Below, piece after piece: positions 11,359 to 20,359 of a stretch of 20,444 nucleotides of DNA. This stretch comes from Actinomycetota bacterium (GTDB taxonomy: Bacteria > Actinomycetota > Humimicrobiia > Humimicrobiales > Humimicrobiaceae): the NCBI GenBank assembly GCA_022865545.1, contig JALHTA010000113.1:1-20444 (forward strand), in the 5' to 3' direction. Made by a program: the position numbers and the translations under genes. Under the pieces are notes generated by a model. The model was not told the DNA's origin. It saw nothing but the letters and a program-made list of their open reading frames with translations, and did not search any database. Positions within the stretch are counted from its first letter, which is position 1; each line of letters begins with the position of its first letter.

Positions 11359-12909
11359 ATGAATGACAGCGGCTCTAAAAGTAAAAATGAGCAGAACAGA
11401 TTAACAGATGACAGATATGAATATTTACTGGAGACTGAAGAGCCTCTTGCTGAAACACTTAAAGCAAAGCTTGATAAAGTAAAATCCCTTAAGAGTAAGG
11501 GAGTCAGGCTTTATGGTACCAAATTTGAGAAAAATATTGATATTTCTGATTTAAGGGAAAAACATTCAGGACTCTCGGCCGGAGAGAAAGCGGAAGGTAA
11601 TTTAAGGATAGCCGGACGGATCATGATATTTAGGAGACATGGTAAGGCTACTTTTTGTGATATCAAAGATTCTACCGGGAAAATGCAGCTTTTTCTTAGC
11701 CTGAACAGCCTCGGAGAGGAAAAATACAATTTATTCTCCGAACAACTTGATATTGGTGATTGGATAGGAGTAGAGGGCAGCATATTTGTTACAAGGGCAG
11801 GTGAGCTTTCACTGGGCGTGAAGAGTTTTGAACTCTTAAGCAAATCCATCAGGATCCTTCCTGAAAAGTGGCACGGACTTAAGGATAAGGAGCTTCGTTA
11901 TAGACAGAGGTATCTGGATTTTACAGTCAACCCGGATGTTAAGGAAGTATTTATTATCAGGATAAAGGCAATAAATGCATTGCGGCAGTTTCTTAATAGC
12001 AGGGGATTTTTAGAAGTAGAGACCCCTATGTTGCAGTCTATACCTGGCGGTGCGGCAGCCCGTCCGTTTATCACACATCATAATGCGCTTGATATTGATC
12101 TTTACCTGAGGATCGCTCCGGAACTTTACCTTAAAAGATTGATTATAGGAGGATTTGAAAAAGTATATGAGATAAACCGTAATTTCAGGAATGAAGGAAT
12201 ATCTTATAAGCATAATCCCGAATTTACCATGGTCGAGTTTTATCAGGCTTTTTGCGACTATAATGACCTGATGGAGCTGACTGAGGAACTAATAAAATAT
12301 ATTGCAGTAGAATCTACTGGCAAGTTAGATTTTAAATACAGGGGAGAAGATATAGATCTCGAACCCGGATGGCAAAAGTTTACCATGCTGGAATCAATAG
12401 AATATTATGGGAAGATAAAAATAGATTTTTCAACAAAAACTGCTGAGTTGGAAAAAATATGTAAAGATCTTGATATCGAAGTCAGTAAAGAGTGGGGTAC
12501 CGGAAAGATAATAAATGAAGTATTTGAAGCAGTTGTTGAGGCAAAACTCATCCAGCCTACCTTTATAAAGGATTATCCTATAGAGATATCTCCACTGGCA
12601 AAGAGACATCCGGATAATGAAAACCTGACTGAAAGATTCGAACTCTTTATAGGGGGAGAAGAAATGGCTAATGCATTTTCAGAGCTTATCGACCCCCGGG
12701 ACCAGCTGGAAAGATTTAAAAACCAGGCAAAAAGCAGTGATGAAGAGGAAAGGATAACGGGAAAAATAGATATCGATTTTCTCAAAGCCCTTGAATACGG
12801 GATGCCGCCAACAGGCGGGGAAGGCATAGGCATAGACAGGCTTATTATGCTCCTGACTGGAAGCGACTCTATTAGGGATGTGATATTGTTCCCGCTTCTT
12901 AGACCTTAA
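11359..12909 (+). CDS. lysS: Lysyl-tRNA synthetase, class II
   Basis: A 516-residue enzyme that charges tRNA-Lys. The N-terminal anticodon-binding OB domain (about 75-180) includes IAGRIMIFRRHGKATFCDIKD. The linking block ILPEKWHGLKDKELRYRQRYLDF follows, then the class II catalytic core: motif 2 FRNEGISYKHNPEFTMVEFY and motif 3 GGEGIGIDRLIMLLTGSDSIRDVILFPLLRP. The N-terminus has about 35 hydrophilic residues before the helical start, slightly more than E. coli LysS. The start is ATG at 11359 with AAAGGA (11343-11348) about 10 nt upstream. Two TATAAT-like sequences (11277-11282, 11289-11294) lie in the greA-lysS gap but lack clear -35 partners. mcsA follows after 39 bases with no terminator visible. 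Confidence 0.96.
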   Translation: MNDSGSKSKNEQNRLTDDRYEYLLETEEPLAETLKAKLDKVKSLKSKGVRLYGTKFEKNIDISDLREKHSGLSAGEKAEGNLRIAGRIMIFRRHGKATFCDIKDSTGKMQLFLSLNSLGEEKYNLFSEQLDIGDWIGVEGSIFVTRAGELSLGVKSFELLSKSIRILPEKWHGLKDKELRYRQRYLDFTVNPDVKEVFIIRIKAINALRQFLNSRGFLEVETPMLQSIPGGAAARPFITHHNALDIDLYLRIAPELYLKRLIIGGFEKVYEINRNFRNEGISYKHNPEFTMVEFYQAFCDYNDLMELTEELIKYIAVESTGKLDFKYRGEDIDLEPGWQKFTMLESIEYYGKIKIDFSTKTAELEKICKDLDIEVSKEWGTGKIINEVFEAVVEAKLIQPTFIKDYPIEISPLAKRHPDNENLTERFELFIGGEEMANAFSELIDPRDQLERFKNQAKSSDEEERITGKIDIDFLKALEYGMPPTGGEGIGIDRLIMLLTGSDSIRDVILFPLLRP

Positions 12910-12948: not shown

Positions 12949-13485
12949 ATGATATGTGATTTTTGTAAAAAGAATATAGCTACGATCCACTTGATAAGGG
13001 TTCAGAATGATAATGTTGAAAAGGTGAATATCTGTGAAGAATGTGCCGGAGATTTTTCCTTTTTTTCAGAGGATGATTTCTATAAGGACCTAACAAAAAT
13101 CCTTTATAAGATATTTAAAGCCGATGAAGGTCAGCTAAGCAGCATAAGGGAATTAAAAAACCTCAAGAATCTTGAAATAAGAAAGAACCGATCCTGTTCT
13201 TTCTGTGGCATGGATCTTAAAAATATAAAAAAACTTGGCAAGATGGGCTGTCCAAACTGTTATAGCGAGTTTAAAAACATATTGCTTCCTATTATTAAAG
13301 CCATACATAAAAATATCGAGCACAGGGGGAAGATCCCGGAAAATACTACCGGCCTGATCAAGCTTGAAAAAAATATAAGGGATCTCCGAAACAGATTAAA
13401 AAGAGAGATCTTTGTAGAGAACTTCGAAGAGGCTGCCAGAATAAGGGACGAGATAAAGCAATTGGAGAAAAATATTTATGAATGA
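12949..13485 (+). CDS. mcsA: McsA, zinc-finger activator of the ClpC/McsB system
   Basis: A 178-residue McsA-type protein with the typical four CxxC pairs at 3-6 (CDFC), 29-32 (CEEC), 83-86 (CSFC) and 101-104 (CPNC). These should bind two zinc ions. The C-terminal UVR motif (about 142-177: LEKNIRDLRNRLKREIFVENFEEAARIRDEIKQLEKN) is the segment also found in UvrB and ClpC. In Bacillus, McsA activates the arginine kinase McsB and helps deliver substrates to ClpC. All key cysteines are present, so this protein looks functional. The start is ATG at 12949 with GGTGAT just upstream. It overlaps mcsB by 8 bases, so the two are coupled. The ctsR gene that usually precedes mcsA is missing; lysS is there instead. 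Confidence 0.92.
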   Translation: MICDFCKKNIATIHLIRVQNDNVEKVNICEECAGDFSFFSEDDFYKDLTKILYKIFKADEGQLSSIRELKNLKNLEIRKNRSCSFCGMDLKNIKKLGKMGCPNCYSEFKNILLPIIKAIHKNIEHRGKIPENTTGLIKLEKNIRDLRNRLKREIFVENFEEAARIRDEIKQLEKNIYE

Positions 13486-14551
13486 TTCAAGGAACTTTCT
13501 TTCAGGAGATGAATCCGAGATCGGAAACCTGGATGGAAACTCCATTATTCTCAGCACGAGAGTGGCCCTTGCCCGAAATCTTGCAAATCATAAGTTTCCC
13601 TCTTCCAGTACTCTTGATGAAAGAACCCAGATAATACGAACTGTCCAGGATTGTATGGAAGGTATAGACGGAAGCTTTGAGTTTCATTTTCACCAGCTCT
13701 CAAGGCTTACAAGAGTGCAGAGGCAAATGATCCTTGGTGATTACCAGATCGATGAAGAATTTGTATCAAAACTATCAGGCAGGGCGATATTATTATCTCC
13801 CCGTCTTTCCTTAAAAGATAGTGCTATTTCCATATTGTTGTGCTGGGATGATCATATAAGGATACAGGTATCGTCTCAGGGTTCATGCATAAAAGAAGGA
13901 TATGTACTAACTGGAAAAATAGAAAAATTACTCGAATCAAGGCTTTCATTTTCCTTTGATAAGGAATGGGGATACCTTACTGCAAATCCCGCTAATCTTG
14001 GCACAGCGCTTGAAGTATCGATAATGGCGCATCTTCCGGCAATTGCAATTAGTCCGGAGATAGCAGATCTTATTAAGAATCTTACAAAAGTAGGTTGCTC
14101 TATAAGTGGTTTTTCGGGTATAAATTCCGAGATCATAGGTAATCTATTCAGGATATCAAGTTCGAAGACATTGGGCAAGAGTGAAGAAGAGATAGTTGAA
14201 GAAATGCAAGCAATTTGCTTAAATATAATTGAAGAGGAAGAAAGTTCAAGAAAGAAACTGGTTAAAAAGGACCTTCTTGGAGCAAAAGATAATGTATATC
14301 GTTCTTATGGCCTTTTAAAATATGCGAAAATATTATCTTTTGATGAGGCCCTGGAGCTCTTATCTATCTTAAGGCTCGGGCTTGATCTGGGAATCGTCGA
14401 AAAAACCAGGGACTTTGATTTATTTGAACTTATTAATATAATTAGTGACTCTCATGTAATCTCTAATTTTGAGATAGAGGGACCAGTTTCAGACGATGAT
14501 ATCGATTTAAAGAGAGCGGACCTGATAAGAGAAAAAGTACTGGAGGAATAG
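13478..14551 (+). CDS. mcsB: McsB-family protein with degenerate arginine-kinase active site
   Basis: A 357-residue homologue of McsB, the protein-arginine kinase that marks proteins for ClpCP. The fold is recognisable from IILSTRVALARNLANHKFP (23-41), DDHIRIQ (124-130), GYLTANPANLGTALEVSIMAHLPAI (165-189), GNLFRISSSKTLGKSEEEI (221-239) and YRSYGLL through ILRLGLDLGI. Compared with the family motifs as I know them, several active-site residues are replaced. SSRxRLARN has Ala30 for the second Arg. NEEDHIR is CWDDHIR (122-128). CPTNxGTGLRAS has Asn170 for Cys and Glu179 for Arg. VRGxYGEGSEA is ISGFSGINSEI, with Ser210 for Arg and Ile215 for Glu. SNQITLG is SSSKTLG. The RDxxRA phosphoarginine pocket is IDLKRA near the C-terminus. 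The frame is intact, so it is probably expressed but catalytically altered or inactive. It overlaps mcsA, and clpC follows after 8 bases. Confidence 0.85.
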   Translation: MNDSRNFLSGDESEIGNLDGNSIILSTRVALARNLANHKFPSSSTLDERTQIIRTVQDCMEGIDGSFEFHFHQLSRLTRVQRQMILGDYQIDEEFVSKLSGRAILLSPRLSLKDSAISILLCWDDHIRIQVSSQGSCIKEGYVLTGKIEKLLESRLSFSFDKEWGYLTANPANLGTALEVSIMAHLPAIAISPEIADLIKNLTKVGCSISGFSGINSEIIGNLFRISSSKTLGKSEEEIVEEMQAICLNIIEEEESSRKKLVKKDLLGAKDNVYRSYGLLKYAKILSFDEALELLSILRLGLDLGIVEKTRDFDLFELINIISDSHVISNFEIEGPVSDDDIDLKRADLIREKVLEE

Positions 14552-19695: not shown

Positions 19696-19953
19696 ATGAG
19701 TATTACAACAATAACAAAAAAAGGCCAAATTACTATTCCAAAGTCAATAAGGGATAAATTAGCTATTAAGGACAATGATAAGCTTTCTGTTAAATTGGTT
19801 GGGAATAAAGCTATTATTGAAAAAATTCCTTTTTTACTTGAGCTTGAAAGCTCGATAAAAACTACCAAAGGTAGGAAGGAATTGGATTGGAAGGAAATAG
19901 AGAGGAAAACTCATGAAGCCCGGGCTAAAAAAGCCGTAAAGGGAAAGGGTTGA
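19696..19953 (+). CDS. vapB: AbrB/MazE-type antitoxin
   Basis: An 85-residue protein whose first 45 residues are a classic SpoVT/AbrB swapped-hairpin DNA-binding domain: TTITKKGQITIPKSIRDKL, then NDKLSVKLVGNKAIIEKI. The C-terminal 40 residues (LELESSIKTTKG through EARAKKAVKGKG) are helical and strongly basic; they should wrap around and neutralise the toxin. The ATG at 19696 is preceded by TAAGGA (19682-19687). The stop lies one base before the toxin start, the usual coupled antitoxin-toxin layout. The gene is AT-rich and uses plainer A/T-ending codons than the genes before it, consistent with recent acquisition. The name vapB is used because the partner is a PIN toxin. Confidence 0.86.
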   Translation: MSITTITKKGQITIPKSIRDKLAIKDNDKLSVKLVGNKAIIEKIPFLLELESSIKTTKGRKELDWKEIERKTHEARAKKAVKGKG

Positions 19954-19954
19954 T

Positions 19955-20359
19955 ATGAAGGAAAGAATATACGCTGATACTAATATTTTTATTCGCTTTT
20001 TTGCTGATGATATGCCTGAACAGACTGAGATTTCAAAAAAAATCTTAAAAGGTTTATTGGAAGATAAATATGAATTATATCTTTGTGATTTAGTTTTTGC
20101 TGAAATCGTCTATGTACTCGAGAGTTATTATAAGCTTGATAAGAAAGATATCCTGGATAAAATGTTTGCAATACTAAAATTTAAGAATCTAGTAGTTGAA
20201 AATAAATCAATAATTATTGAGGCTTTAGAAATATATAATGAGAAAAACATTGATTTTACTGATGCTTATATGGCCTGTCATGCCAGAAAGGCCGGCTGCA
20301 ATAAAATATTTTCATTTGATAAAGATTTTACCAGGATCAATTTTTTGAAAATATTATAA
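19955..20359 (+). CDS. vapC: PIN-domain ribonuclease toxin
   Basis: A 134-residue PIN-domain protein, the toxin half of a VapBC-type module; relatives cleave tRNA or rRNA in a metal-dependent way. The four acidic active-site residues are present: Asp8 (YADTNIFIRF), Glu50 (DLVFAEIVYVLE), Asp103 (DFTDAYMACHA) and Asp122 (IFSFDKDF). The enzyme is therefore predicted active. The ATG at 19955 follows the antitoxin stop by one base, with GGGAAAGGG upstream. The length is normal and the frame intact. The target RNA cannot be read from the sequence. The 85 bases downstream to the window edge show no gene and no terminator. Confidence 0.9.
   Translation: MKERIYADTNIFIRFFADDMPEQTEISKKILKGLLEDKYELYLCDLVFAEIVYVLESYYKLDKKDILDKMFAILKFKNLVVENKSIIIEALEIYNEKNIDFTDAYMACHARKAGCNKIFSFDKDFTRINFLKIL

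Follow-up and report, generated by a model that had tools for sequence, protein, structure and literature searches.

Does an mcsB gene that stands between mcsA and clpC necessarily encode a protein arginine kinase? The question is raised by a stretch of 20,444 nucleotides (hereafter the window), which is contig JALHTA010000113.1 of the draft genome GCA_022865545.1 (G000 in our numbering; other G numbers denote the compared genomes) of an Actinomycetota bacterium of the Humimicrobiaceae. An earlier note on this DNA had proposed that its McsB keeps fold and operon but has lost much of the arginine-kinase active site. Our analysis makes it likely that the protein is a McsB pseudokinase, in which arginine phosphorylation has been dismantled while the McsA-McsB-ClpC genes have been kept, and which would serve as a non-catalytic adaptor or regulator. 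McsB may serve ClpC by tagging substrates or also as a physical adaptor, and the two roles have been difficult to tell apart, since both suffer in kinase mutants (PMC5506225). Lineages in which the kinase chemistry has apparently been lost but the McsA-McsB-ClpC genes have been kept would offer a natural separation of function. They also make it unsafe, in Actinomycetota, to annotate a "protein arginine kinase" or to infer phosphoarginine signalling from the presence of mcsB.

Identity and active site of the window McsB

The gene is uninterrupted, overlaps mcsA and precedes clpC, just as the note had described: 357 codons followed by TAG contain no internal stop, the 5' end shares 8 nt with mcsA, and clpC starts 8 nt past the stop (Table 1). 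The protein matches PF00217 in Pfam (E 1.9e-44), and its top PDB matches are McsB, spanning residues 21-354. With PF00217 and the McsB C-terminal domain over the full length, and with the mcsA-mcsB-clpC context, it is a McsB homologue by descent. Its best NCBIfam models are those of protein arginine kinase, with scores of 276.4 bits (curated equivalog cut-off 385) and 255.1 bits (cut-off 500), both too low to pass. An AlphaFold2 model built from 90 sequences (predicted local distance difference test, pLDDT, 88.5; predicted template-modelling score, pTM, 0.87) retains the McsB fold; its best PDB match in Foldseek is McsB 6fh1 (TM 0.83). Among the matches listed, the best 120 of 1327 (from 7998 scored candidates sharing most words), the nearest named kin are uncultured Actinomycetota and one Candidatus Hydromicrobium sp. 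of the class Candidatus Humimicrobiia. A second, canonical mcsB elsewhere in the genome was considered in the note; no other PF00217 protein was found in G000, a draft of 487 contigs that is 92% complete, in a search that recovered the known copy and for which the 14 control genomes, with 0 matches, were uninformative. A scan of the genome contigs gave one distant locus, which was not used.

Residue equivalences were taken from an alignment with B. subtilis McsB, whose numbering we use for the reference sites. Every replacement that the note had listed (Ala30, Glu179, Ser210, CWDD at 122-125, Ile215 and SSSK at 227-230) holds on this alignment. The list was incomplete in that it missed C167 (now Asn170), R86 (Gln83) and R337 (Ile342), and within NEED the second glutamate (E121) has changed conservatively to Asp124, the first (E120) being Trp123. 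Kept in the window protein are R28 (R29), R33 (R34), R128 (R125), D125, H126, D343 (D338) and R346 (R341).

E121 and E212, which we take to be the catalytic glutamates of McsB, are D124 and I215 in the window protein, and Cys167 is N170, so that a set expected of the enzyme is not present. C167S is a kinase-inactive form of B. subtilis McsB, and lysine at R29, R31, R34, R125, R176, R207 or R337 abolishes its kinase activity in vitro, R31 and R337 lying outside the active site according to the same paper (PMC7235348). Four of these seven essential arginines are replaced in the window protein (A30, E179, S210 and I342), and of the six in the kinase domain (R29, R31, R34, R125, R176 and R207), all of which an active enzyme would be expected to hold, three are kept. 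In arginine kinase, a cluster of Arg124, Arg126, Arg229 and Arg280 guides the nucleotide (PMC12467219); the matching of its numbers to those of McsB is our own.

Two candidate signs were set aside. Loss of R337 is not diagnostic of a pseudokinase because none of the 26 other actinobacterial rows has R337, and 16 of these are canonical at the remaining sites they cover; it occurs in 0 of 92 family rows as well, and Acetoanaerobium also lacks it. The note had also considered that neighbouring positions might supply the missing arginines. None clearly takes over, and compensation or a salt bridge for Glu179 (R176) by Arg225 (Q222) is not supported because a basic residue stands there also in relatives in which R176 is present.

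Catalytic losses across the clade and the family

The tree comprised 122 rows, 116 of them different; the partial rows P0023, P0043, P0047, P0058 and P0059, the partial G005 frame and P0071-P0121 were excluded from it and from the 92-row counts, and gaps were not scored as losses (this concerns G333 and G011). The window McsB falls in a clade of 23 rows (SH-aLRT support 99). Throughout this clade R31, E212 and C167 are gone (0/23 each), the R176 position is Glu (23/23), and R34, H123, D122, D338 and R341 are each kept (23/23); R207 remains in 4/23, and at the E121 position 19 rows have D, 3 have N and 1 has E.

In the whole family (92 rows, some identical; SH-aLRT 100), R207 is kept in 18/92, E212 in 37/92 and C167 in 13/92, R34 is found in 91 rows with one gap, and R341 in all 92. 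R29, R31, R34, R125, R176, R207, E121 and E212 occur together in ten of the 92 rows. The window gene belongs to a 74-row part of the tree, and none of these ten fully canonical rows falls within it, so that the losses look stepwise. The deep branch under this view has a support of only 87, and the corresponding branch in a more careful tree has 31 (bootstrap 46).

The clade has also acquired residues of its own. Nine positions are conserved in a state that differs from canonical McsB (the new residue at a frequency of 0.9 or more among 22 clade rows, the old one at 0.75 or more among 29 canonical rows), and seven of them fall in the former NEED, SCPTNVGTGLRAS and QISNQ blocks; C122 and W123 are found in 22/22 clade rows, where N and E stand in 29/29 canonical rows. 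Variation would be expected at these sites in a purely structural relic, and the pocket could have a new activity or ligand (another nucleotide, another acceptor, a different group to transfer, or a ligand that is sensed) handled by C122, W123, D125, H126, R28 and R33. We consider this unlikely: the ex-catalytic sites 128, 210 and 215 are variable within the clade, Tyr89 and the basic residue at 225 occur outside it too and hence are not clade-specific, and the missing phosphatase gene described below fits a plain loss of arginine phosphorylation.

The conserved residues also bear on whether the window protein could still be a working, though weak, protein arginine kinase that makes up for its lost residues in some other way. 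R28, R33, R128, D125 and H126 are kept, as are the McsA zinc fingers and E32, E106 and R254 of ClpC, and D for E at 121 is conservative; set against them are the glutamate at R176 and the loss of E212 and C167 in all 23 clade rows, the fact that lysine alone at R31, R176 or R207 is enough to kill the activity of B. subtilis McsB in vitro, the lack of a YwlE-like match in the draft genome or at its sua5 site, and the finding of no other PF00217 protein in it. A working kinase is therefore very unlikely, in our estimate, and the pseudokinase reading is preferred.

In a wider set, PF00217 was found in 55 of 396 Actinomycetota genomes drawn, 29 of the family and 26 others, and one McsB copy was examined in each of the latter (G339 has two). 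Six of the 26 show several non-conservative losses: G209, G079 and G267 (f28), G043 (f7), and G132 and G288 (f41). Other changes are those of G349 (R31K and R125C), G067 (R176E alone), and G154 and G142 (a single R-to-K each), and 16 have none. mcsA and clpC adjoin mcsB in the six degenerate genomes and in G067. The McsB proteins of f28, f41 and f7 thus resemble that of the window in their neighbours and in having lost several catalytic residues, but other residues are lost and they stand on separate tree branches; the losses in f28, G043 and f41 apparently arose independently.

Selection and decay

Is the gene merely on its way out? By the NG86 method, the ratio of nonsynonymous to synonymous substitution rates (dN/dS) of mcsB lies between 0.045 and 0.232 in the 16 of 19 relative pairs with finite dS (three are saturated), including 0.104 for the canonical pair G004-G018, and mcsB in these relatives is under purifying selection. 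For G000-G001 the value is 0.126, a rough one at a dS of 2.6. The note had named frameshifts in relatives as a mark of decay; no inner stop was found among 34 match rows, but one relative, G031, has lost both mcsA and mcsB from the interval that separates lysS and clpC, where about 40 bp remain that are 95% identical to the relatives' mcsB. At this deletion locus (L154, G031:C59) the relic lies directly before clpC, and an assembly chimera is possible.

The G031 deletion is what plain decay toward gene loss would produce, and the number of lost residues is graded across the family rows. Between G000 and G001, mcsB is also less conserved (55% identity) than mcsA (65%) and clpC (85%), but the canonical pair G004-G018 diverges about equally (61, 74 and 88%, mcsA from 88 codons). 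Together with the open frames, dN/dS well below 1 and the new conserved motif, this makes decay quite improbable as an account of the window gene. The features by which we would recognise a pseudokinase, namely a fold that is kept, catalytic residues lost across a clade and purifying selection, thus all appear to be present, selection being roughly estimated for the window gene itself.

A phosphatase gene at the sua5 site

In B. subtilis, YwlE removes phosphoarginine (PMC5506225). A YwlE-like match was found in nine of the 35 family genomes; that of G023 is weak and the protein is ArsC-like in its motif. In the other eight (G013, G008, G005, G021, G012, G018, G030 and G004) the gene lies directly after sua5 and before rpiB or glyA, and we take sua5-phosphatase-rpiB/glyA to be the gene order of B. 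subtilis as well. Pfam confirmed the names sua5, rpiB and glyA in G000. Seven of the family proteins carry the motif CxGNTxRS, and that of G030 carries CSGNIARS; the Thr is presumably the mark of arginine specificity. At 216-262 aa, the open frames of these proteins (L168-L175) exceed the length of about 150 aa that we take to be usual for the YwlE type, and the motif is changed in G030 and G005. Our first motif pattern matched 0 loci, and a looser one was used afterwards. The presence of PF01451 per se was discarded as evidence for an eraser, being uninformative because most family matches are ArsC-like in motif.

Across 28 family sua5 loci, the YwlE-like gene is present in 8, rpiB or glyA comes next in 19, and one ends too soon. 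All three canonical-McsB family genomes with a resolved site have the gene after sua5. G000 is one of the 19: its order is sua5-rpiB-glyA, 84 nt separate the first two frames, there is no YwlE-like gene at this site, and no match to one was found in the genome (draft, 92% complete). The window genome thus lacks a detectable YwlE-type phosphatase, which we would expect where phosphoarginine is both written and erased. As a side observation, the sole LMWPc match in G000 (L046, G000:C99:3893-4285) is ArsC-like in motif and has an in-frame stop.

At 21 sua5 loci outside the family, an LMWPc gene comes next in 12, rpiB in four (G135, G043, G288 and G132) and glyA in one (G209), with G067 and G349 unresolved. 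In the remaining two, G079 and G267 (L255, L256), sua5 and rpiB are separated by some 800 unexplained bp in which ywlE gave no match. No LMWPc match was found in G209, G079, G267 and G043, which are 96-100% complete, nor in G135, G349 and G386. Motifs were read for 30 of the 35 LMWPc matches outside the family; other LMWPc types in G132, G288 and G067 were left uncounted and may be phosphoarginine phosphatases. Among the 16 non-family genomes scored as having the gene, four (G331, G142, G297 and G323) were scored by motif on stretches that do not include sua5.

Over 46 scored genomes, the YwlE-like gene is present in 17 of 19 with canonical McsB compared with 4 of 27 with altered McsB (Fisher 4.8e-7, which is overstated because the genomes are related), the YwlE classes having been assigned by hand from motif and sua5 synteny, not blind, with the McsB status already known. 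When only non-conservative losses are counted, the figures are 17/19 and 2/24; R-to-K or E-to-D are the sole changes in five genomes, three of which were scored. Eight family genomes could not be determined since the site is unresolvable (G001, G034, G015, G009, G011, G026, G025 and G016), and counting them as without the gene gives 17/20 compared with 4/34. Exceptions on the altered side include G154 and G142, which have a single R-to-K in McsB and have kept the YwlE-like gene. Outside all tables stand G005 and G030, which have the YwlE-like gene and a partial McsB, and G008, which has the gene and in which no McsB was found. Pairs corrected for kinship (8 independent) gave on average 4.9 same, 0 opposite and 3.1 equal, with a median p of 0.0625; a careful tree allowed 6 pairs, with 4.5 same, 0 opposite and 1.5 equal, and the same median p.

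Proposed mechanism and points for and against it

Based on these results, we propose the following scheme. The lineage has kept the McsB fold, the McsA partner and the place before clpC and has lost much of the catalytic set of the arginine kinase, and the window genome also lacks the YwlE-like phosphatase gene at sua5. The window protein would then no longer phosphorylate arginine. Bound to McsA, it may serve ClpC as an adaptor or regulator without catalysis, and the old active-site pocket may have been re-used or sealed. The loss of arginine-kinase function, the central claim of the earlier note, is supported by the multi-site and clade-wide replacements, dN/dS below 1 in relatives, the fold model and the absence of the sua5-linked eraser gene; a role of McsA and pseudo-McsB as adaptor or regulator of ClpC is plausible on the gene context and on the way in which mcsA and mcsB are absent together.

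Several points weigh against this scheme. Three of the seven essential arginines (R28, R33 and R128) are still present, and E121 became only Asp. The dN/dS values come from relatives with altered McsB and not from the window gene's close relatives, the G000-G001 value being rough, and in G031 mcsA and mcsB proved dispensable. The tree-corrected association of altered McsB with a missing YwlE-like gene is only suggestive. Individual genomes depart from it: G012 and G021 combine altered McsB with a retained YwlE-like gene, in G135 McsB is canonical and the order is sua5-rpiB-glyA, the phosphatase gene being absent, and in G386 (71% complete) canonical McsB is present and no YwlE-like gene was found. 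The YwlE-like protein of G013 matches LMWPc in Pfam and, in NCBIfam, only arsenate-reductase models far below cut-off, with no match to a YwlE model; the basis of the YwlE label is therefore its position and motif. Moreover, 14 of the 16 non-family genomes scored with the gene have Ile, Met or Leu, not Thr, in that motif. In B. subtilis the adaptor function of McsB for ClpC is reported to depend on kinase activity (PMC5506225). A kinase-independent function of McsB, which would favour the scheme, was inferred from C167S, but for MgsR, whose degradation is mainly ClpX-dependent (ClpXP), deletion of clpC having no effect (PMC7235348).

Another arginine kinase could also exist in the window lineage, since Mycolicibacterium smegmatis has phosphoarginine and no known McsB (PMC9604228). 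If so, the window McsB might read the mark instead of writing it. A broader scenario would be that McsA-McsB was, at its root, also a phosphorylation-independent ClpC adaptor, that several actinobacterial lineages discarded active site and eraser together, and that in the window clade the pocket was rebuilt around Cys-Trp-x-Asp-His, where it binds a new ligand and gates ClpC. We regard this scenario as a whole as doubtful.

The closest known systems are those of B. subtilis and Geobacillus stearothermophilus (6fh1, 6tv6), with which the window McsB shares the whole-length fold (by the model), the mcsA-mcsB-clpC operon and the equivalents of R29, R34, R125, H123, D338 and R341. Unlike them, it replaces R31, E120, E121, C167, R176, R207, E212 and N225, and neither ctsR nor a YwlE-like gene was found in the window genome. 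Like the predicted window protein, B. subtilis McsB C167S is an inactive kinase with the protein present (PMC7235348); it is a laboratory point mutant with an effect on MgsR, whereas the window loss is natural, multi-site and clade-wide. Bacterial serine/threonine pseudokinases are likewise kinase-like proteins in which key catalytic residues have gone (PMC12599244); McsB was found only among the references there. Within the open literature (preprints and most subscription papers fall outside this scope), we found no McsB or phosphagen-kinase pseudokinase in the excerpts consulted. The fold of the serine/threonine pseudokinases is, we assume, unrelated to that of the window McsB.

Partner genes and the rest of the window

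McsB was matched in 30 family genomes, and in 29 of them the gene, or its end, adjoins clpC on a single contig; the G030 match stops at a contig edge. Matches to McsB and to McsA are both missing from the other five family genomes (G007, G008, G023, G031 and G032), G031 alone being resolved. The zinc-finger CxxC pairs of McsA were judged by eye to be intact also in the relatives that cover them. In ClpC, E32 and E106, which we take to be residues of the phosphoarginine site, are found in 29/29 covering rows, and R254 in 30/30. Loss of this ClpC pocket, a candidate corroboration, gives no signal because E32, E106 and R254 are all kept. CtsR (PF05848) was not found in any of the 35 family genomes, with a weak control in which only Lactococcus matched among 14.

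Table 1. Features of the mcsA-mcsB-clpC region and replaced sites of the window McsB (B. subtilis numbering for the reference residues)
Feature	Position	Strand	Basis
mcsB-like gene, 357 aa, predicted pseudokinase	13478..14551	+	open reading frame (ORF); Pfam, NCBIfam and PDB matches; alignment; fold model
codon 30, Ala replacing R31	13565..13567	+	alignment
codons 122-125, CWDD replacing NEED	13841..13852	+	alignment
codon 170, Asn replacing C167	13985..13987	+	alignment
codon 179, Glu replacing R176	14012..14014	+	alignment
codon 210, Ser replacing R207	14105..14107	+	alignment
codon 215, Ile replacing E212	14120..14122	+	alignment
codons 225-230, RISSSK replacing QISNQI	14150..14167	+	alignment
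mcsA	12949..13485	+	NF053706, E 8.8e-40, 136/210 bits (below cut-off); both CxxC pairs per zinc finger
clpC, 824 aa	14560..17034	+	Pfam; N-domain E32 and E106 kept
lysS, upstream of mcsA, no ctsR between	11359..12909	+	window annotation

The rest of the window (1-20444) is housekeeping in content, with ssb, rplI, dnaB, purA, purD, purE, an ABC-transporter ATPase gene, greA, lysS, disA, ispD and ispF. Near its end, at 19696-20359 (+), a MazE-type antitoxin-like gene and a PIN-domain gene stand next to each other and probably form a VapBC-type pair.

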